A DNA stretch of 64,000 nucleotides from Synechococcus sp. BL107 (lineage in GTDB: Bacteria > Cyanobacteriota > Cyanobacteriia > PCC-6307 > Cyanobiaceae). The stretch's first letter is position 1. Each line of letters opens with the position of its first letter. Made by a program: the position numbers and the translations under genes. Below the pieces are notes generated by a model. The model had not been told where the DNA came from. It was given only the letters and a program-made list of their open reading frames with translations, and ran no database searches. The DNA is taken from contig NZ_DS022298.1 of the NCBI RefSeq assembly GCF_000153805.1, positions 1,037,434-1,101,433 of the forward strand, given 5' to 3'. Below are positions 16,699-64,000 of this stretch, piece by piece.

Positions 16699-17406
16699 TT
16701 GCCAACGGCATTAATCACTGGGGCCAGTCGAGGCATTGGGCGCCGCACCGCGGAGCTCCTGTCTGAGCGAGGCTGGAACCTGTTGTTAACGGCACGCAGC
16801 GGTCATGACCTTGAAGACCTCGCAACTCGCTTGCGAACTTCGAGTCAGGTTGTTGCAACTGCTGCAGTTGACCTCACCAGCCCTTCCGAGATCCAGCCTG
16901 CATTTGCAAGGTTGATTTCGGAGGGCGAGCCGCCCTCTGTGTTGATTAACAATGCAGGTGCTGCCTACACCGGTGATCTCTTGGCAATGCCCTTAGAGCG
17001 TTGGCAATGGTTGCTTCAGCTGAATCTCACCAGCGTGATGCAGGTTTGTTCGGCTGTGGTTCCTTCCATGCGTTCGCGGGGAGGCTTGGTGATCAACGTG
17101 AGTAGCCATGCTGCTCGTAATGCATTCCCTCAATGGGGTGCTTACTGCATTACCAAGGCCGCTCTGGCCAGTTTCACGCGCTGCTTAGCTGAAGAAGAGC
17201 GTGATCAAGGCATTCGTGCCTGCACGCTCACCCTCGGTGCGGTGAATACCCCTCTGTGGGATGCAGAAACCGTACAAAGCGATTTCGATCGTCGTGCCAT
17301 GCTCACCGTCGATCAAGCGGCTGATGCTTTGGTGAACTTGGCAGAGCAACCCTCGAACCAAGTGATCGAAGACCTAACACTTATGCCGGCTGCCGGCGCC
17401 TTTTAA
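16699..17406 (+). CDS. Short-chain dehydrogenase/reductase
   Basis: 235 residues from a TTG start. The N-terminal cofactor motif TGASRGIG, the NNAG motif in VLINNAGAAYTG, the catalytic Ser in VINVSSHAAR and the YxxxK in YCITKAAL are all present, so it should be an active classical SDR. No substrate-specific feature is visible. The end of accA lies 24 bases upstream and folE starts 9 bases downstream, so it likely shares their transcript. Confidence 0.9.
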   Translation: MPTALITGASRGIGRRTAELLSERGWNLLLTARSGHDLEDLATRLRTSSQVVATAAVDLTSPSEIQPAFARLISEGEPPSVLINNAGAAYTGDLLAMPLERWQWLLQLNLTSVMQVCSAVVPSMRSRGGLVINVSSHAARNAFPQWGAYCITKAALASFTRCLAEEERDQGIRACTLTLGAVNTPLWDAETVQSDFDRRAMLTVDQAADALVNLAEQPSNQVIEDLTLMPAAGAF

Positions 17407-53027: not shown

Positions 53028-53540
53028 GCAAAGGTTGAGCAAAAGGTATCTCTTGCTCTTGATATGAACTTTGAACTTAGACCTTGCGGGAGTAGTACCT
53101 GCTTTCAGCCTATGACTGCGGTTTAGGCTAGTTTTAAAGGTTCGAGTAAAGTTTGAGTAGGCCGTTGGCTCGTTGTTGACCAGAGCTAAACAAAGACAGA
53201 TTGCGAGACGTCTCTGTAAGCCTCGAAGCAGCTAGAGCAGCTGGAAAGTCACTTTGAAGGTGCGGTACTTGTTTATGTAGTCCTGATTATTTAGTCATGC
53301 CAATCATTTTTGGGAATAGTTTGAGTAGGTTCTGTTGAAAGTTTGAGCTAGCCACGCCGAGTGACGCTTCAGAACAGCTCTGGAAACAGGTGGAGCCCTA
53401 TTTGGGAGCGTCTGAGGAGCTGTAGAGCGAAGAAGCAAGGGGGCAGGGGGAGTTTTATGTCCTTGCTTATACGAATACGGCTTCAGATATTTAAATTATT
53501 TTTTTTGGGATTTTTTCTAGTCTTTTAAGGTTTTAAATAG
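53028..53540. repeat. Non-coding region with three GTTTGAG repeats
   Basis: About 510 bases without a supported gene. Three related direct repeats occur: AAAGTTTGAGTAGG at 53148-53161, ATAGTTTGAGTAGG at 53316-53329 and AAAGTTTGAGCTAG at 53338-53351. A further GGTTCGAG at 53139 resembles a tRNA T-loop, but no cloverleaf is seen. This marks the start of the AT-rich accessory segment and may hold attachment-site remnants or a small RNA. Confidence 0.45.
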
Positions 53541-54978: not shown

Positions 54979-55338
54979 CTAATAAAGATTTGGAAAATTA
55001 ATTCGATGTTGATCTAACCCATAAGCAACAACAGCATCCATTTCCTCTTGTGTTGGGTTATCTCCTAATGCAGCACGTCGAATCTTGTATTCACGATTTC
55101 TATCTACTTCATTAGATGATTGTGAATGTGTAATTGGAATGGCTCGTGCTTGCTGTGTAATCACCTCTGAAGCCATTGGAGGAAGTATGGGAGCATCTGG
55201 TGCTTCGTCTTCTCTAAGAGGTTCTCTAGCGTCTTCTAGACGTTGCTGACGCATTGCTGCGTTGCGTGCATCATTAGCTGGTACCTCTTCATTGTTTTGA
55301 ATCTGTAGTGCTTTAAGACGACGAGATGACTCAAGCAA
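54979..55338 (-). CDS. Hypothetical hydrophilic protein, last of the small-gene chain
   Basis: 119 residues from a TTG start. It is charged and disordered-looking (LEDAREPLREDEAPDAPILPP) with a possible ordered end (EYKIRRAALGDNPTQEEMDAVVAYGLD). The start overlaps the previous gene's stop by eight bases. No family recognised. The start could instead lie at the internal Met near residue 29. Confidence 0.5.
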   Translation of the reverse strand: MLESSRRLKALQIQNNEEVPANDARNAAMRQQRLEDAREPLREDEAPDAPILPPMASEVITQQARAIPITHSQSSNEVDRNREYKIRRAALGDNPTQEEMDAVVAYGLDQHRINFPNLY

Positions 55339-55591
55339 TCCCCATCATTGGAGCCAACCACTCAGCATGAAGTGCTGCAAGCACTGCCATGTCAAAGGTG
55401 TGCACAGCAGGGTTGGTCTTATCTGCCAACCAAAGCAGTCCAAAGGGAGCATTGATTGCCAGCTGCAACCTCCACCGCCATGTGATTACCTTCCAAGCGT
55501 TCTGAAGAAAGGGGTTCTTGATCACGGTTGAGCTGGACCAAAGTTCTGCGGACCCTATCCAGTTATGCGTCCATATCGTTGAGCACTCCAT
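55331..55591 (-). CDS. Small Trp-rich protein, possible membrane protein
   Basis: 86 residues beginning MECSTIWTHNWIGSAELW, with a good GAGGAG ribosome-binding site just upstream. The middle VITWRWRLQLAINAPFGLLWLADK and later VHTFDMAVLAALHAEWLAPM look amphipathic to hydrophobic with regular Trp. It overlaps the downstream hypothetical by 8 bases. I do not recognise the family, but the composition and SD support coding. Confidence 0.55.
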   Translation of the reverse strand: MECSTIWTHNWIGSAELWSSSTVIKNPFLQNAWKVITWRWRLQLAINAPFGLLWLADKTNPAVHTFDMAVLAALHAEWLAPMMGIA

Positions 55592-55718
55592 CTCTCTCCT
55601 CTGTCACGTCTGTGTTGATAGATCAGGCAGCAGGTCGATCCCTCGCCTCCGCACCGCCAAGGATGCAGGTGCCTCTAAGGACACTCGAATAAAGAGCCGC
55701 CATCGCTCAGCGGACTCA

Positions 55719-55880
55719 TCATCCGGCGAACTCAGCGCTCAACCGGAGAGCAGCACCCAGAACCCATGCACTGAGGAGCACGACGAGCAAAACGTAGACA
55801 GACCGTATAGACAGCGGATGCTCTGCAGGGTCTACCCCTGATAAGGGATCCAAAGGTCCTTGTCGAGCTGACCCAGGCAT
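55719..55880 (-). CDS. Small single-helix membrane protein (53 residues)
   Basis: 53 residues starting MPGSARQGPLDPLSG. A polar N-terminus is followed by one strong transmembrane helix (about 28-44, VYVLLVVLLSAWVLGAA) and a short tail. A GGGAG sequence lies about ten bases upstream of the ATG. It falls in a gap that standard length cut-offs skip and is in line with the other small minus-strand genes. Confidence 0.5.
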   Translation of the reverse strand: MPGSARQGPLDPLSGVDPAEHPLSIRSVYVLLVVLLSAWVLGAALRLSAEFAG

Positions 55881-55934
55881 AGTGTCACACTCCCACTGAG
55901 TTTTCGGAACCCCTGCCTCAATTGAAAGAGGTAG

Positions 55935-56301: not shown

Positions 56302-57168
56302 TCAATGGAAAGGAATGACTTCAATGGTTTTATTTTTGGCAACGAACTCTTCAAGCAAAGGGATACCCGCCTTGATTTCGTCGATGAGGTCAGCTTGTGC
56401 AGCAGGTGTGAATCCGTCGAGGCGGTGTTCTATTTCACCTGACACAAACAGTTGGAAGAATTGCTTGATCAGTCTTTGGCCGGACTCTTGCTTTTCAATG
56501 ACGGATTCGTCTACGGCATCGTCCATGACAGCCAATGACTCATGCGCGGCTAGTGCATACGTTGGACGTATCTCGTGAAAGTTGGTAGCACTTCGTTTAC
56601 GTCCCCTCCTTTCATGTTCATCCTTCGGACTTGACTGACACAACGTCTCTAACTCAGCTTGTGAATAAACCTTGTTGTCGTCGAGAAATTCTCTTCGTAC
56701 TAGATCTATAGCTCCATCACTCATGCGAGACAGCTCGTAGAGCTTGGAGACATTCTTGAAGTATTCGTCAAGGAAACTGTTTTGTCTTTTGATTAACTCC
56801 GTTTCTGTAAAATACTCAAATTCGTCATAACGCCTACCATGCAATCTTGCATAAAACTCTCCAGCCTTCATCAACTTACTAACCTTTGATGGCTTGAATC
56901 CAATCTCTTGAAGCTGTTCACGAATATGTTTTTTCAGCTTAGACCTTTCGTAGCGTTCATCCATTGGGACGCTGAACAAGGCGATCACAAGTTGTAGTCC
57001 TGCAGAGGCAGATTCTTTTTCAAGGTTGTTTGTTGTGACGTATAGCTTTCGAAGTTGAGTTTCAACTCTTTCACCTGCTAGTTCAGCAATTTCTTTGGCA
57101 ATTAGAACGTATCGGTGATCGATGCTTCCATCGTCATTCTTGGGCGTAATTAGCTGTCTAAGGCTCAT
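56302..57168 (-). CDS. Hypothetical protein, largest of the minus-strand small-gene chain
   Basis: 288 residues, soluble and mostly helical. Features: RGRKRSATNFHEIRP basic patch near residue 200, LIKQFFQLFVSGEIEHRL and the C-terminal DEIKAGIPLLEEFVAKNK. GGAGG lies seven bases before the ATG, and the ATG overlaps the stop of the 50-residue gene (ATGA). No family recognised. A nucleic-acid-associated role is conceivable from the basic patch but unsupported. Confidence 0.65.
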   Translation of the reverse strand: MSLRQLITPKNDDGSIDHRYVLIAKEIAELAGERVETQLRKLYVTTNNLEKESASAGLQLVIALFSVPMDERYERSKLKKHIREQLQEIGFKPSKVSKLMKAGEFYARLHGRRYDEFEYFTETELIKRQNSFLDEYFKNVSKLYELSRMSDGAIDLVRREFLDDNKVYSQAELETLCQSSPKDEHERRGRKRSATNFHEIRPTYALAAHESLAVMDDAVDESVIEKQESGQRLIKQFFQLFVSGEIEHRLDGFTPAAQADLIDEIKAGIPLLEEFVAKNKTIEVIPFH

Positions 57169-57317
57169 GTCTGATCCTCCAGGGCTCGTTCGACAGCATC
57201 AGCCATATCAAATGCAAACTCCTTCCAGTCTGTTTGGGCAACCTCAAGAATTAGTGAGGCAGGATTATCTCTAGTGATGTCGTAATACTGCTTTGGGATT
57301 TCGATTGTTAATTTCAT
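57165..57317 (-). CDS. Small acidic protein (50 residues), first of the chain
   Basis: 50 residues starting MKLTIEIPKQYYDITRDNP and ending ERALEDQT. It looks like a short strand followed by two helices. Overlaps the next gene by four bases (ATGA), giving good support for translation. An 18-bp palindrome lies 21 bases upstream and may be its operator. It could be a small antitoxin or phage-type regulator, but this is speculation. Confidence 0.6.
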   Translation of the reverse strand: MKLTIEIPKQYYDITRDNPASLILEVAQTDWKEFAFDMADAVERALEDQT

Positions 57318-57337
57318 GTAGATGGTATTTATTGGTT

Positions 57338-57375
57338 TTTTTCCGCACGGAAAAAGCTTCCACCACTAGCTGGTG
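57338..57375. promoter_or_regulatory. Two palindromes upstream of the small-gene chain
   Basis: TTTTTCCG-CA-CGGAAAAA at 57338-57355 (8-bp arms) and CACCA-CTAGC-TGGTG at 57361-57375 (5-bp arms) lie directly upstream of the gene starting at 57317. The first looks like a repressor operator. The second shares CCACTAG with the 18-bp elements at 58879 and 59087, though the match is weak. Confidence 0.45.
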
Positions 57376-57428
57376 ACTTGTCCTGGCTAATGGTGATACA
57401 GAGATGTTTGGGATGTAGAAAGGCTTGT

Positions 57429-57599
57429 ATGCCGAAGGCTCCGCCACTATTGACAGAACCTTTTGAGATGTTTGGGAGAGGTTTCAGTGCCGCTGTCGAG
57501 ACGTCACGTCAGGCATACGTATTGGGACCAACCACAACAGCCACTACCGTTTGTGTTCCTAGGCGCGTATTAACGCAATCTTGTAACTACTGCTTTTAG
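57429..57599 (+). CDS. Possible small protein (56 residues)
   Basis: A frame starting MPKAPPLLTEPFEMFGRGFS, with AAAGG about six bases upstream, ends in CNYCF. It contains many Thr and Ala residues and two closing Cys. It is divergent from the minus-strand small-gene chain and no family is recognised. It may be a chance frame. Confidence 0.28.
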   Translation: MPKAPPLLTEPFEMFGRGFSAAVETSRQAYVLGPTTTATTVCVPRRVLTQSCNYCF

Positions 57600-57727
57600 C
57601 CATTCATCCAAGACTGTTTTTTTATCCTGGCATCCAGCCAGCATTAGGGAGTCTTTCTCCCTTCACAATAGTAGGTGTAAAAAGGGTAAATGTGTTGCAA
57701 GGCAGTTGTTCTGAGCGAAACCAATTG

Positions 57728-58840
57728 CTAACTTAGTCCACCATCTCTTGATTTCATCTGCTCTAAACGCTTCAGAATCTCGGTGTCTTGCTCAATGAAA
57801 CTTGGATTTGACTGATACCTGCTTAAGGCAACGCCGATGGCCTCGTGCCAAAGCCCCTCGAATAGCTTTTCGAAGAGATTGCTCGATGCCATCTCTTTCC
57901 ATTCTGATCGTGCGCGTTTCAAATAAGTTTGAAAAAGTTTGGCATCAGCCACAGTGAGAAACTTTATGTATTCTGGCGTATATAGAGCGATATGCTTGGT
58001 TGGATCATTCCCTAGAGACTCAATGGCAGATCTGACCTCTTGGAATTCATCAAGTTGAATCCAATCAGCCAATTCATTGATTTGTCGCTCATTGAGCATT
58101 TCGTAGTAAATTTTTTCGATTGCAGTTTCCAGAATGAATCGTCCAAGAGACGTAGCATTTGAAGTCGCGCTTGTATCGCACTGGGTTTCTAAAAAGGATA
58201 AATTTTGATTGTGATAAAAAGATAGTAATTCGGATATTTTTTTTGAGTGGTCAAGGCTCAGCTTGATATTGACTTGAAGTCTGTCGCGTGCTCGTTTGAA
58301 TCCCTTGCAATTAGGGCAGATCTCAAGCTCAGCCGGGTCTGTTTTTTGCAATATTTTTAAGGCTGACGTCGAGCTAATAGCAAAAGTGCCGTGCTCAGGG
58401 CAATGGAATGTTATTGATTTGGCGTGATGGTGATGGACATTCTGCCTGTCTATATCTTTGTATCTATAAACAGTAAGTGATTCAATATGATTAATAGCTT
58501 CTTCGACTTGCCTTAGATAATCTTCGCTAGTTCTATATAAATCTGAGAGTCCTGATTTCTCAACTAGTTTGACGACTTCAATGTGTCCTTTCTCTTTCGC
58601 CTTTTGAAGTATTGAATAGGCATCTTCTTTATTGTTGTCCTTTATTGCACGGTGAGTGGCATCGAGCAGCTGCTCTTTCTCTTTCCATCGGCTCGACTCA
58701 ACAAAGTCATATTCATCTATTAATCCTACGACCTCGAAATTATTTTGCTGTCTTGCTAATAGCCATAGATCTTTAATTGCAGGGCGATCGCCTTTCTCAA
58801 TTGCCCTCTTGGCCGATTCCATCAATTTATCTGATGGCAT
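57728..58840 (-). CDS. Unknown protein with CPxHG/CPxC zinc-ribbon motif
   Basis: 370 residues. The N-terminal 125 are helical and slightly ankyrin-like. Residues 147-178 contain HCPEHGTFAI...EICPNCKG (C147, H150, C175, C178), the CPxHGxF/CPxC ribbon known in phage- and mobile-element-associated endonuclease-like proteins. The remaining 190 residues are helical, with no clear nuclease core. The ATG is 38 bases from an 18-bp operator that is repeated in front of the divergent cluster. Confidence 0.7.
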   Translation of the reverse strand: MPSDKLMESAKRAIEKGDRPAIKDLWLLARQQNNFEVVGLIDEYDFVESSRWKEKEQLLDATHRAIKDNNKEDAYSILQKAKEKGHIEVVKLVEKSGLSDLYRTSEDYLRQVEEAINHIESLTVYRYKDIDRQNVHHHHAKSITFHCPEHGTFAISSTSALKILQKTDPAELEICPNCKGFKRARDRLQVNIKLSLDHSKKISELLSFYHNQNLSFLETQCDTSATSNATSLGRFILETAIEKIYYEMLNERQINELADWIQLDEFQEVRSAIESLGNDPTKHIALYTPEYIKFLTVADAKLFQTYLKRARSEWKEMASSNLFEKLFEGLWHEAIGVALSRYQSNPSFIEQDTEILKRLEQMKSRDGGLS

Positions 58841-58878
58841 GCGGGGTACCTAAGTCAGAACAACTGAAGCTTACCATC

Positions 58879-58896
58879 GGGCCACTAGTGGGTCAA
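58879..58896. promoter_or_regulatory. 18-bp operator-like element, copy 1
   Basis: GGGCCACTAGTGGGTCAA, with CCACTAGTGG as a perfect palindrome in the middle. Read on the minus strand it begins TTGACC, positioned as a -35 box 17 bases before a weak TAAGCT -10, upstream of the zinc-ribbon gene. It is identical to the copy at 59087-59104. Confidence 0.7.
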
Positions 58897-59086
58897 CAAT
58901 GCTCTGGCCGGCAAACCTTTGATGCTCAAATATCACTGTGACCTCCCTGAGCATGCATTCACGAGTCCCTATACCTATTGTCTTTCTGGATAGCCGTAAT
59001 AACAAGCCAGGACTGGATTCTTGGACAACGTCGAGCCTTTCTTGCGTCGCGTGCGCGGATCCGAGCGCAGGGAATTGCTTGACATT

Positions 59087-59104
59087 GGGCCACTAGTGGG
59101 TCAA
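59087..59104. promoter_or_regulatory. 18-bp operator-like element, copy 2
   Basis: Identical to copy 1 over all 18 bases. It lies in the spacer of a plausible plus-strand promoter: TTGACA at 59079-59084, then AATACT at 59103-59108 (18-base spacing), before the ATG at 59130. A repressor bound here would block that promoter. The ribbon-helix-helix-like protein at 59691 is a natural candidate for the repressor. Confidence 0.72.
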
Positions 59105-59129
59105 TACTTATTGAGTCTAATTCATTCCC

Positions 59130-59393
59130 ATGGCAAAAACGCATCACTACGGATCACGCATCAGCAAGAGAGGAATACGGGAAGCCACCGTTGAACTGGC
59201 TATTCGTCATGGCATTCGCCACGGCGAGAAATTCGTCCTTGGTAAGAAGCAGATCAAAAACCTCATGGGAGAGTTCGACCAGATCCGCAAAAACCTATGT
59301 ACTGCCTTGGATAAAGGCGGTGTTGTAGTCGTCGCCAGTGATGGCGTACTGATTACTGCATATGACTTCGACAGCCGTAAAGGAAATTACTGA
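59130..59393 (+). CDS. DUF4258-like small protein
   Basis: 87 residues. HHYGSRISKRGIREATVELAIRHG followed by FVLGKKQIKNLM and GGVVVVASDGVLITAYDF matches the DUF4258 pattern (sxRGIsxxxvexai...G..V.V....ITaY), a RelE/ParE-like fold often in toxin-antitoxin or mobile contexts. First gene of the plus-strand cluster, 26 bases after operator copy 2. Whether it is a toxin here is inference. Its stop overlaps the next start (TGATG). Confidence 0.72.
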   Translation: MAKTHHYGSRISKRGIREATVELAIRHGIRHGEKFVLGKKQIKNLMGEFDQIRKNLCTALDKGGVVVVASDGVLITAYDFDSRKGNY

Positions 59394-59689
59394 TGTCGAA
59401 TCAAATGAATTTTTCAAAATCAGAGCAACCAGAAATTCCCTTGATTTCCAGGGAAGGTCTTCGGGAAACAACCGTCGAACTGACGGTCAGGTTCTGGCAC
59501 GTGAATCCTCATGAGCAACAACCTGTCTCGAGTTTGGCGAACGAACTCAGGTTCGACGATGTGCTTCAGCAAATCGAGAATTCAGGGATTTATCAGATTG
59601 CTGCGATGGAAAATCGGGTCTTAGCTACTTGGAACGGCGCCAAGATCTCAGATCGACATCCTGGATCTAAGCATCTAGAGGAAAACTGA
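59393..59689 (+). CDS. Hypothetical protein sharing a motif with its neighbour
   Basis: 98 residues. The segment LISREGLRETTVELTVRFW closely parallels RISKRGIREATVELAIRHG of the DUF4258-like gene just upstream, so part of it probably arose by local duplication and divergence. The rest (SLANELRFDDVLQQIENSG... ATWNGAKISDRHPG) is not recognised. Translationally coupled to its neighbour on the left and one base before the next gene's start. Confidence 0.6.
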   Translation: MSNQMNFSKSEQPEIPLISREGLRETTVELTVRFWHVNPHEQQPVSSLANELRFDDVLQQIENSGIYQIAAMENRVLATWNGAKISDRHPGSKHLEEN

Positions 59690-59690
59690 A

Positions 59691-59972
59691 ATGGCACTTC
59701 AACACGGCAACAAGATTTATCTTCAACTCCTTTTAGATCCAGCAAGAGGAGTAATCCTTCAGCAAATAGCTAAGGACAAAGGTATAAAGACAACGGCTCT
59801 TGCACGTCAGGCAATTTATGACTGGCTTGAGTTAATGACCGAAGAACATGTCATGAAAGCAGCTGAAGCCTTGGATGAGGCCAGGTGGCAGCAGTCTGTA
59901 CAGAATCGGATTGAAGGACGAAAACGTAAGCGTCAACAAAGGTTGTTAGCTCAGATCGCCTCGCAGCTATGA
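59691..59972 (+). CDS. Ribbon-helix-helix-like regulator
   Basis: 93 residues. GNKIYLQLLLDPARGVILQQIA is strand-then-helix and GIKTTALARQAIYDWLE the second helix of an RHH (CopG/MetJ-like) fold. The tail (RIEGRKRKRQQRLLAQIA) is basic. Likely a dimeric repressor acting on the 18-bp palindromes that flank the divergent promoter. Starts one base after the previous stop and shares ATGA with the next gene. The regulatory role is inference. Confidence 0.72.
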   Translation: MALQHGNKIYLQLLLDPARGVILQQIAKDKGIKTTALARQAIYDWLELMTEEHVMKAAEALDEARWQQSVQNRIEGRKRKRQQRLLAQIASQL

Positions 59973-60155: not shown

Positions 60156-60836
60156 ATGCTCCAAACAAAAAGCACAGCCAAGCCAAGAACCTCCCCCTAC
60201 ATCTGGGTCACTTGGGTTACTAAGTTGATTTCAGGTGAAGAGTCCTGCAAATACAAGCTTTGGTTCAGGGCTAATAATCTTGGCTATTCCAAGGTTCCTA
60301 AAACTTTTAACTTAGCGAAATGGTGCGAAGACCATACAGCCTTGATCGAAAAAAGAAAGCAAGAGCTTATATCTCAGGGTTATAAGGTCTTTCTAGAGGA
60401 TCAAAACTCATTTGCTCTGACCGGCAAGAGTGGCGCGACCCTTTCTGGTAAAGCCGATATTGTTGCAATCAAAGGGAGTGATGCTCTCGTTATTGACTGC
60501 AAAACAGGTCAGCAACGCAATTCAGATGTGACACAAGTCAAGCTCTATATGCTTGCACTACCATTAGCAAATGAAAGGCATAGGGGGTTATTCTTTAGGG
60601 GTGAAGTTCAGTACAAGGATAAGCTTATTCCTGTACCAAGTGAAGCTATTAATGATATTGACTTAATCAATACATTAAATAGTGTGATGGGTATAACCTC
60701 TTTGCCTCCCGGTGATGAAGTTGAAACCCTTACATGCGCAAGCTATGGGGAGTGCCGCTTCTGCGATCTTACTTCTGCCGACTGTAAGTCAAGGGTTGAG
60801 TCTGATTCGAACAAAGGGACTACGGACTTATTTTAA
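60156..60836 (+). CDS. Cas4-like PD-(D/E)XK nuclease with Fe-S cysteines
   Basis: 226 residues. SGKADIVAIK then ALVIDCKTGQ give the catalytic D101, D114 and K116 of the PD-(D/E)XK fold. A lone Cys at 31 (SCKYKLWFRA) pairs with C200, C203 and C210 in GECRFCDLTSADC, the one-plus-three cysteine arrangement of Cas4 and AddB 4Fe-4S nucleases. Single-stranded DNA exonuclease activity would be expected. No cas1/cas2 or array is in the window. Confidence 0.78.
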   Translation: MLQTKSTAKPRTSPYIWVTWVTKLISGEESCKYKLWFRANNLGYSKVPKTFNLAKWCEDHTALIEKRKQELISQGYKVFLEDQNSFALTGKSGATLSGKADIVAIKGSDALVIDCKTGQQRNSDVTQVKLYMLALPLANERHRGLFFRGEVQYKDKLIPVPSEAINDIDLINTLNSVMGITSLPPGDEVETLTCASYGECRFCDLTSADCKSRVESDSNKGTTDLF

Positions 60837-61561: not shown

Positions 61562-61652
61562 AAACTCAAAATATTACGTCAATACCTACAACTAAATAAG
61601 GTCTGATACGAACCAATTGATTGCGAACAGCAAAGCCTCAGGACCCAATCTC

Positions 61653-62459
61653 ATGACATCAATCCAAAGTCCAGCCAAAATACAGGCGTCTCGTTTCTTA
61701 CTCACCTCTAGCGAGATGCAGCCGCCCGTCTTTGAACCAATCACACCTAAACGTGTTAGTGAGCGTTGGTTCCCAAAGGGACGGTCATTTGGTCTCTATG
61801 AATCCGGTGGAAGGGTTGCACCCAATGTGACTTCGATCTTGGGATGGAGATTCCCATTTGATAAGTCGAGGTGGAAGAAGTCTGAGCCTGATATTGATCA
61901 CGATGCTGTTACCAGAGAATCAGCCCAACGAGGCACTGCAGTTCACTTAGCTATGGAGAAGTGGTTACAAAGCCACGACCACACACCTATTGAAAAGCAT
62001 TTGAAGTGGATTTACCCACTTCAAAGCCTTGTCTCAAGAGCCACCAAAACCTTGGCTGTGGAGATTCCTCTCCACTATTCGATTGCTGGTGTTGGCTCAT
62101 ATGCAGGGAGTTGTGATGGAGTCATGCTTGTCAAAGGCGATGTAGTGCTTATTGACTACAAGACCAAGCGTCCTGGAAAGTATGTCAGCCCCAAATATTG
62201 TGAGCAGCAGAGACTTCAACTAGCTGCATATTCCCTTGCAATAAGTGATCTTTATCAAGACCAGCTTCCATCACCAATCACACGGACAAGTCTTTTATTT
62301 GCTCATCCTGAAGAGGGTAAACCTGTGACTGTTGTATCGACACAAGGAAATCTTCTTCTTGAGTATCAACAGAAATGGCTCGATCTACTTGGTGAATGGT
62401 ATGAAGTTCATGGTGAAGAAGTTGCAGATGAGCAAAGTGCTTTCGATTTGGCTAGCTAG
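61653..62459 (+). CDS. RecB-like PD-(D/E)XK nuclease
   Basis: 268 residues from the ATG at 61653; a TTG at 61617 is possible. The motif set H98 (RGTAVH), E137 (AVEIPL), D155 (SCDGVML), D168-x-K170 (IDYKTK) and a following QRLQLAAYSLA helix is the RecB-type nuclease arrangement, typical of phage exonucleases and RecB family proteins. It should degrade or process DNA ends. No Fe-S cysteines are seen, unlike the Cas4-like nuclease upstream. Confidence 0.8.
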   Translation: MTSIQSPAKIQASRFLLTSSEMQPPVFEPITPKRVSERWFPKGRSFGLYESGGRVAPNVTSILGWRFPFDKSRWKKSEPDIDHDAVTRESAQRGTAVHLAMEKWLQSHDHTPIEKHLKWIYPLQSLVSRATKTLAVEIPLHYSIAGVGSYAGSCDGVMLVKGDVVLIDYKTKRPGKYVSPKYCEQQRLQLAAYSLAISDLYQDQLPSPITRTSLLFAHPEEGKPVTVVSTQGNLLLEYQQKWLDLLGEWYEVHGEEVADEQSAFDLAS

Positions 62460-62471
62460 GAGGAACTAAAG

Positions 62472-64000
62472 ATGGTAACTTTTGACGATTTTTATAGATC
62501 TCTACCAGAGGACAGTAATAAGAGAGGGGAGTATTTCGAGAAGATATTCATTCCTTGGTTCCTAAAGACAGACCCTGTGTGGTCATCCAAGGTCAATCAG
62601 GTCTGGCTATGGGACGACTATCCACAACGATGGGGCAAGGATTGTGGAATTGATCTCGTTTATGAGGATACTGAGGGAAAGCACTGGGCAATTCAAAGCA
62701 AGTGTGTTGCGCCTGAGCGTGAGATCTCCAAGGCAGAAATCGATAGTTTCCTCAGTGAGTCAAGTGATTCCAGGATTCATGGACGACTGCTGATCGCCTC
62801 AACGGATGGCATCGGCAAGAACGCACAACAAGTCCTTGATAGACAGGAAAAGCAAGTTGTCTGTTTCTTGCTTGAGCAGTTCAGGCAATCAGAGGTCGAG
62901 TACCCAACGTCCTCAGAAGATCTTTCAGGGGGTCAGAGAAGGAAGAAGCGCACACCACTCCCCCATCAACTGGAAGCAATCAACAACGTCGTAGAGGGTT
63001 TCCAGCAGGAAGACAGGGGTCAACTCCTAATGGCGTGTGGCACAGGAAAGACACTGACTTCGCTTTGGATTAAAGAAGCACTGAAGGTCAAGCGGACACT
63101 TGTTCTTCTCCCGTCCCTCAGTCTTCTGTCTCAGACCCTTAGGGAGTGGTCAGCAACGAGTCAGGAGAAATTCAACTGGATCTGTGTCTGCTCTGACAAG
63201 TCAGTCGCAAAGCAGGACAACACCACTGACAGCATGATTGAGCGTGTCAGTGCACTTGGTGTTCCCGTCACAAGCGACCCAGATGAAATCAAAAGATTCC
63301 TTCTGGGCAATGACGGTGGAATTGTGTTCTCGACATATCAATCCTCTCCATTAGTCGAAGAGTCGCAGAGATCACCAGAAGTCCCATCATTTGATATTGC
63401 ATTTGCAGACGAGGCACATCGTTGTGCAGGAAAAGTTTCAAGTGCTTTTGGCAGCATCCTTGATGACCAGAAGATTAGGTCAAAAAAACGCTTGTTCATG
63501 ACTGCAACACCAAGAGTGCTGTCAAAGCAAATTAAGAACAAAGCAGATGAAGAGAATATCAATCTTGCCTGTATGGATGACAGTTCACAATTCGGTGAAG
63601 TATTCCATCAACTCAATTTCTCAGAGGCAATTGAGAATGATCTGTTAAGCGATTATCAGGTTGTCATCGTAGGCGTTGATGACCCATCTGTTCAGGCCAA
63701 AATACTGGACAGAGTGATTGTAGATACAGGTAATGAATGCAATATCGATACAGAAACACTTGCGAATCATATTGCTCTTGCAAAGGCAATTAAAGATTAT
63801 GACCTGAGTCGAATGATCACCTTTCATAGTCGGGTCAAGTCAGCAAAGAAATTCTCTGAGGACCACCCTTTAATCCTTGATTGGATCCCTGAAGCATCCA
63901 AATCATCGAAGTCGGCAATGACTTCATACGTTTCAGGAGAGATGAACGCAAAAAATAGAAATACTGAAATCAATAAGTTGAAAAATGTCAGTGAGCAAGA
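62472..64000 (+). CDS. Mrr-like nuclease fused to SF2 helicase (3' part outside window)
   Basis: 509 complete codons and still open at the edge. An AGGAGG ribosome-binding site overlaps the preceding stop. Residues about 54-78 (KDCGIDLVYEDTEG...AIQSKC) are a D...QxK Mrr-type restriction nuclease core. Then Walker A CGTGKT near 190, DEAH near 312 (ADEAHRC) and TATPR follow. This matches the N-terminal half of Type ISP restriction enzymes or related helicases. A downstream methyltransferase domain would decide between them. Confidence 0.85.
   Translation, partial: MVTFDDFYRSLPEDSNKRGEYFEKIFIPWFLKTDPVWSSKVNQVWLWDDYPQRWGKDCGIDLVYEDTEGKHWAIQSKCVAPEREISKAEIDSFLSESSDSRIHGRLLIASTDGIGKNAQQVLDRQEKQVVCFLLEQFRQSEVEYPTSSEDLSGGQRRKKRTPLPHQLEAINNVVEGFQQEDRGQLLMACGTGKTLTSLWIKEALKVKRTLVLLPSLSLLSQTLREWSATSQEKFNWICVCSDKSVAKQDNTTDSMIERVSALGVPVTSDPDEIKRFLLGNDGGIVFSTYQSSPLVEESQRSPEVPSFDIAFADEAHRCAGKVSSAFGSILDDQKIRSKKRLFMTATPRVLSKQIKNKADEENINLACMDDSSQFGEVFHQLNFSEAIENDLLSDYQVVIVGVDDPSVQAKILDRVIVDTGNECNIDTETLANHIALAKAIKDYDLSRMITFHSRVKSAKKFSEDHPLILDWIPEASKSSKSAMTSYVSGEMNAKNRNTEINKLKNVSEQ

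Follow-up and report, generated by a model that had tools for sequence, protein, structure and literature searches.

Twin copies of an 18-bp sequence with a palindromic core in the gap between two divergent gene sets of a mobile element in Synechococcus sp. BL107

Two identical 18-bp sequences lie in the gap between two divergent gene sets of an integrated element, raising the question of whether they act as a shared control site and, if so, which protein binds them. The stretch analyzed comprised 64 kb (G000:C1:1037434-1101433, referred to here as the window, G000 being the element's own genome). Searching the window for exact matches placed GGGCCACTAGTGGGTCAA at 58879-58896 (copy 1) and 59087-59104 (copy 2), both on the + strand and 208 bp apart from start to start, exactly as claimed in the initial annotation. 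Similarity between the copies stretched 10 bp further to the left, giving an extended 28-bp unit (repeat family D4; 58869-58896 and 59077-59104, both on the + strand) with 89% identity between copies. That an identity of 18 bases exceeds chance was borne out in two ways. When the 289-bp gap was block-shuffled 2000 times, longest repeats of 5-12 bp were obtained as compared to the 18 bp observed, with 0/2000 shuffles exceeding 12 bp, and allowing up to 3 mismatches the window contained 2 matches to the 18-mer, both of them exact, when 0.03 were expected from shuffles of the window. These results confirmed that the repeat is real. The genome-wide search for copies proposed in the initial annotation returned exactly these two rather than many unrelated ones; within 2 mismatches the genome (a single contig of 2,285,034 bases) contained no further copy. 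The 14-mer CCACTAGTGGGTCA gave 13 genomic matches with up to 2 mismatches, both copies included, as compared to 41 for the reversed control, and the best other match (1 mismatch) looked coding by eye. Matches to the 18-mer with up to 2 mismatches were detected in 8/151 family genomes and outside the own genome always carried exactly 2 mismatches. The 16-mer GGGCCACTAGTGGGTC was absent from viral contigs, and the intergenic DNA was unmatched in phage and plasmid records.

The 18-mer had been described as palindromic. This held for a 10-bp, loop-free core, CCACTAGTGG (58882-58891 in copy 1 and 59090-59099 in copy 2), while the rest of the sequence is not perfectly palindromic. Pairing about the center of this core covered 9/11 half-positions in copy 2 and 7/11 in copy 1, and 9 paired half-positions were reached by 30 of the 3352 overlapping 50-bp windows of the region. 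A loop-free dyad close to the starts of two gene sets looks like the site of a dimeric repressor. The two copies are direct repeats and are not mirrored, whereas divergent promoters would suggest a mirrored arrangement. The start codons lie 38 bp (ATG 58840) and 25 bp (ATG 59130) from the 18-mers. Toward the rightward cluster, copy 2 falls within the promoter-like match TTGACA-18-AATACT (59079-59108, + strand, 10/12), where it occupies spacer positions 3-18 plus the first two bases of AATACT. The spacer is 18 nt long. The match itself occurred at the chance rate, being the one promoter-like match reported for 58600-59400 when 1.1 are expected by chance in 800 bp, and it was not significant alone. 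Toward the leftward genes, copy 1 supplies the -35 box and 12/17 spacer bases of TTGACC-17-TAAGCT (58868-58896, - strand, 8/12); a better leftward match was present at 59136 (9/12) and two others tied at 8. Statistical support was strong for the repeat, moderate for the dyad and hardly present for the promoters.

The gap belongs to a 22.5-kb element bounded by 23-bp attachment repeats, the left one at 53076-53098 and the right one at L025:12004-12026. The latter falls within the 3' end of rpsD, which is protein-coding and was named by its translation. The right end of the element encodes the RNA polymerase described below and a probable tyrosine integrase; the latter matched PF00589 with 25.0 bits (E 1.8e-5), slightly short of the 27.1-bit cut-off, and has relatives in 6/14 other element loci. 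A sister element in the same genus (G029) was found through the structured RNA described below; its polymerase-integrase-rpsD stretch aligned unbroken and its integrase was 86% identical. A 562-bp segment of the window (55331-55892) was 87% identical to the sister element and stands in a different order there, suggesting that cargo has been shuffled between the two. Like this element, the tycheposons of marine picocyanobacteria are integrated and carry cargo, and the probable integrase would give both a tyrosine recombinase. Tycheposons are reported to have border tRNA genes (PMC10872708), whereas the present element sits at the 3' end of rpsD with no border tRNA and brings its own RNA polymerase; no tRNA gene was detected in the window or L025. 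Two trypsin-like proteins of the element (L025:3812-5059, - strand, and L025:6675-8012, + strand) resemble the PADLOC LmuA and RT-protease models and may be defence genes.

The leftward set opens with a gene for a 370-aa protein (57728-58840, - strand). Its designation as a zinc-ribbon gene was only partly sustained, as a Cys/His motif was visible by eye but Pfam gave only E = 0.13, and we refer to it as the zinc-motif gene. Matches to the protein occurred in 2/201 family genomes, own included, the single match among the other 200 being weak (E 0.002). Further left lies gene X (288 aa, 56302-57168, - strand), which is kept beside the structured RNA in related elements. The rightward cluster behind copy 2 begins with an 87-aa protein (59130-59393, + strand) with weak similarity to DUF4258 (E 0.086, and E 0.0066 for its relative in L023, both below the cut-off), a family that may be part of the RelE-like toxins. 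It is followed by a 98-aa protein (59393-59689, + strand), which may be a diverged paralogue of the 87-aa protein, as it matches that protein's relatives (tblastn 0.02-0.03), and by a 93-aa protein with an RHH-like sequence pattern (59691-59972, + strand). Family libraries identified a Cas4/RecB-like PD-(D/E)XK nuclease (60156-60836, + strand). Beyond it are a second, phage exonuclease-like PD-(D/E)XK nuclease (61617-62459, + strand), which has an 81% identical relative in the sister element, and a 912-aa protein combining an Mrr-like nuclease with a DEAD helicase (62472-64000, on to L025:1643, + strand). The cluster also contains a 50-aa protein, among others. Gene X and the 149-aa and 98-aa proteins matched no family above the cut-off in the family libraries. 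Other members of the 87-aa family were located at L021:5001-5261, L024:6001-6261 (with an in-frame stop) and L026:5974-6213 (genome G057, truncated).

We favor, with a probability of roughly 0.45, the reading that a dimeric DNA-binding regulator encoded by the element cargo uses the two 18-mers as twin operators. By occupying the core CCACTAGTGG, this regulator would cover the start regions in both directions and could jointly repress the leftward genes (the zinc-motif gene, the structured RNA and gene X) and the rightward cluster (the 87-aa, 98-aa and RHH-like proteins, the nucleases and the Mrr-helicase protein), if the promoter-like matches are used and the cluster forms an operon. The initial annotation had likewise proposed shared repression. 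The dyad core, the promoter-like sequences facing both ways and the restriction to two copies are consistent with it, while the chance rate of the promoters, the direct orientation of the copies and the better leftward matches elsewhere in the gap argue against it. The genes on either side are rare, and a conserved footprint did not emerge. In a neighbor-based search for a footprint, family genomes, phage records and viral contigs were screened for relatives of the RHH-like, zinc-motif, 149-aa and first nuclease proteins, and the loci found (L026, L074 and L080-L082) were decayed, had another context or lacked a comparable start region. The 18-mer sites are missing from the sister element, the cargo of which is largely different. 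The two elements have a nuclease (81%) but hardly any other cargo in common, which suggests that the sites go with the present cargo and that a protein encoded there is the probable binder.

The likeliest binder would be the RHH-like product of the gene at 59691, which could then repress its own operon in the manner of RHH antitoxins. We regard this protein as a tentative candidate. It is the only candidate DNA-binding regulator recognised on either side of the gap, and no HTH family was found above the cut-off in the proteins scanned. The protein itself matched no RHH family, the only similarities being to CENP-X (0.015) and the HTH family DicC (E 0.076), both far below the cut-off, and its structure model was of low confidence (pLDDT 66) and lacked the expected N-terminal strand. 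A 43% identical relative on a viral contig (L074) showed sub-threshold similarity to the RelB antitoxin of NCBIfam (7.7e-4) and to DUF6290 of Pfam (1.6e-4). The model of the 87-aa protein was poor (pLDDT 55), and for both proteins no match fell below E 0.6 in PDB sequence searches or below E 2 in fold searches. Relatives of the RHH-like protein were found in 3/251 family genomes, own included and one of them marginal. In genome G057 such a relative (60% over 80 residues) directly follows an 87-aa relative in a decayed locus; in the own locus the 98-aa gene sits between the two, whereas in G057 the pair adjoin. Sites resembling CCACTAGTGG occurred in the decayed G057 locus at the chance level (4 matches with up to 2 mismatches as compared to 6.0 expected). 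A toxin-antitoxin system is a possible reading.

Two well-known arrangements are comparable with the twin operator reading. Palindromic sites, the C-boxes, control restriction-modification operons through C proteins. The present sites are similar in being palindromic and in the start region of nuclease genes, and two 87-aa relatives, in L021 and L024, precede genes read by eye as type I restriction-modification; directly behind the L023 relative no type I restriction-modification gene was seen. In contrast to C-box systems, a C protein was not recognised and the proteins scanned contained no methyltransferase, the scan covering the helicase protein up to its last 403 residues. Both L021 and L024 carry a different inverted repeat, TGTCAG-NNN-CTGACA, upstream of the 87-aa relative and of a TTGACA (by eye). 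We count this arrangement in favor of the operator reading; against it, the repeat is unlike the 18-mer in sequence and no RHH gene was noticed there. The relO operator of E. coli relBE is the second comparison. Here too a palindromic core coincides with a promoter-like match, ahead of genes for an RHH-like protein and a small possible toxin. The relO operator consists of four hexads in two adjoining 12-bp half-sites (PMC2812701), whereas here two separate sites serve two divergent gene sets and the RHH fold and the toxin are only candidates.

A doubtful alternative to cargo-encoded repression, though the best surviving one, is that the repeats form a promoter-operator module to which a regulator of the host binds, or that they are a duplicated promoter region that has no repressor of its own. 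The leftward extension of the similarity to 28 bp is what a duplication would leave, and copy 1 also yields a weaker rightward promoter-like match of its own, TTACCA-18-AACAAT (8/12). A host regulon, however, predicts sites elsewhere, and the genome held none within 2 mismatches of the 18-mer.

The element encodes a polymerase that raises a further alternative. An intact single-subunit (T7-like) RNA polymerase of 809 aa (L025:8076-10505, - strand; Pfam RNA_pol 1.9e-51) matched the mitochondrial and T7 enzymes in the PDB, and its catalytic motifs appeared to be in place when judged against the T7 motifs. Among the phage relatives listed the best was that of cyanophage Syn5 (28%). Matches occurred in 18/201 family genomes, own included; eight relatives were nearly full length with 38-48% identity (one with an internal stop and two from near-identical contigs) and the remaining matches were fragments or 22-29% identical. 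The 18-mers could be promoters of this polymerase, a reading encouraged by its presence in the same element, by Syn5 being its best-listed phage relative and by the sequence around the sites: read from 3 bases further upstream, copy 2 opens with ATTGGGC, as does the Syn5 promoter ATTGGGCACCCGTAA, and copy 1 with ATCGGGC. The number of sites also agrees, two promoter copies being reported for Syn5 (PMC3950665). Beyond these seven bases, however, the 18-mer differs from the Syn5 promoter, which had no match with up to 3 mismatches in the element or L025. The 18-mer also has a palindromic core, and promoters of single-subunit polymerases are not known to be palindromic. Its direct orientation is unsuited to divergent genes.

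The sister element was the most direct comparison. Its polymerase shows 86% identity across 736 residues and 73% across the first 73. The presumed promoter-reading loop, placed by T7 numbering, is alike at 27/30 residues (counted by eye), yet the 18-mer was absent within 3 mismatches anywhere in G029. In G029, however, the polymerase gene is broken by an in-frame stop and a frameshift, and the cognate promoters may have been lost with it. Eight further elements, one of which encodes a partial polymerase, contained no match to the 18-mer closer than 5/18 mismatches. A 10-base half-form of the 18-mer gave one 1-mismatch match each in G144 and G053, and the Syn5 promoter gave one 3-mismatch match in G481, when single shuffles gave 0-5 for such short or loose forms. 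The promoter reading was thus not upheld by the Syn5 promoter match, by repeats in 14 other polymerase-bearing loci or by G029, and we consider it unlikely, with only a small probability.

Repeats of other kinds were present in the other elements. None of those in G144 (55 bp), G481 (49 bp), G182 and G057 resembled the 18-mer, and in G196, G148, G126 and G053 (a short contig) the longest non-coding direct repeats were presumed attachment repeats, short tandem repeats or at most 14 bp. In G057 the T7-promoter-like AGTGCCACACTATAGGAGAAAG (- strand) occurs twice, at L063:15377-15408 and L064:6681-6712, once directly behind the polymerase gene. Behind the polymerase gene of G182 (L059, about 16840-16981) are two hairpins like tRNA T-arms (GGTTCGATTCC) with differing stems (by eye), and behind that of G481 (L057:17180-17326) are two 49-bp imperfect palindromes, the differences between which seem to preserve pairing (by eye). 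A glutamine-II riboswitch match lies at L049:13451-13510 (- strand) within the presumed G144 element.

Direct repeats may also serve recombination or replication, either as iteron-like sites or as the ends of an inserted 190-bp segment. The direct orientation, the spacing of about 200 bp and the location on a mobile element are compatible with such a role, but there are two copies only, the attachment repeats of the element lie elsewhere (at 53076 and rpsD) and no replication gene was recognised beside the sites, leaving this reading improbable. Chance resemblance of the sites has a negligible probability, as only the promoter scores are weak and chance is ruled out for the repeat by the gap shuffles and the 0.03 matches expected in 64 kb.

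The leftward set, which the twin operators would hold down together with the rightward cluster, includes a structured RNA between the zinc-motif gene and gene X, with its core at 57475-57638 (- strand). Several related elements carry this non-coding region too, there flanked by the polymerase gene and gene X. A four-helix structure built on seven sequences paired in 85.3% of cells, and 15/22 pairs were changed on both sides at least once. The covariation score was 0.615 as compared to 0.07-0.14 when slid by 1-3 columns, with pairing then at 26-45%; the structure was drawn from the same seven sequences, which favors it over the slid versions. A covariance model detected the RNA in 19/251 family genomes (E <= 0.05). 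The matches fell at 23 places, including 14 beyond the loci analyzed up to then. Of these 14 new places 12 were inspected, and in 7/12 a gene X relative lay just behind the RNA. The loci with the RNA are, besides the window, L052, L055, L053, L051, L049, L061 and L106-L117. Rfam at the gathering level gave no match to the RNA in the window or in eight element loci, six of which contain it, and a permissive Rfam scan of 56900-59400 gave only a chance-level match (E 0.78).

The RNA region was 88% identical between G000 and G029 over 333 bp. It contains the short motif TCCCAAACATCTC twice, 64 bp apart in G000, and G029 has both copies with the same A/G difference, the second copy there differing at one further base. 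At the place of this motif, 5/19 loci had a longest repeat of a length reached in at most 5/200 shuffles (G000, G126 and L106, 0; L107, 1; G053, 5), and L115 (7/200 shuffles) and G196 (17/200) were borderline at the same place. For 11/19 loci the longest repeat lay elsewhere or did not exceed chance; that of L109 was long but elsewhere.

A shared operator is a known and ordinary device, and the interest of the twin sites lies in their setting, namely the gap between the gene sets of a mobile element that encodes a single-subunit RNA polymerase of its own together with a covarying RNA without an Rfam match. We found no description of such elements in the literature searched, the coverage of which excludes most subscription journals. 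The element with its polymerase and RNA is a more interesting find than the twin sites. A bolder reading, which we consider rather unlikely, is that an undescribed class of integrative elements, with a phage-type polymerase and a structured RNA that has two co-varying motif copies, uses the twin palindromes as its lifestyle switch. Both the RNA-gene X module and the nuclease operon would then be repressed by one cargo-borne protein, and its loss would release them together. If the sites are the switch of the element, they would offer a simple experimental handle on such elements.
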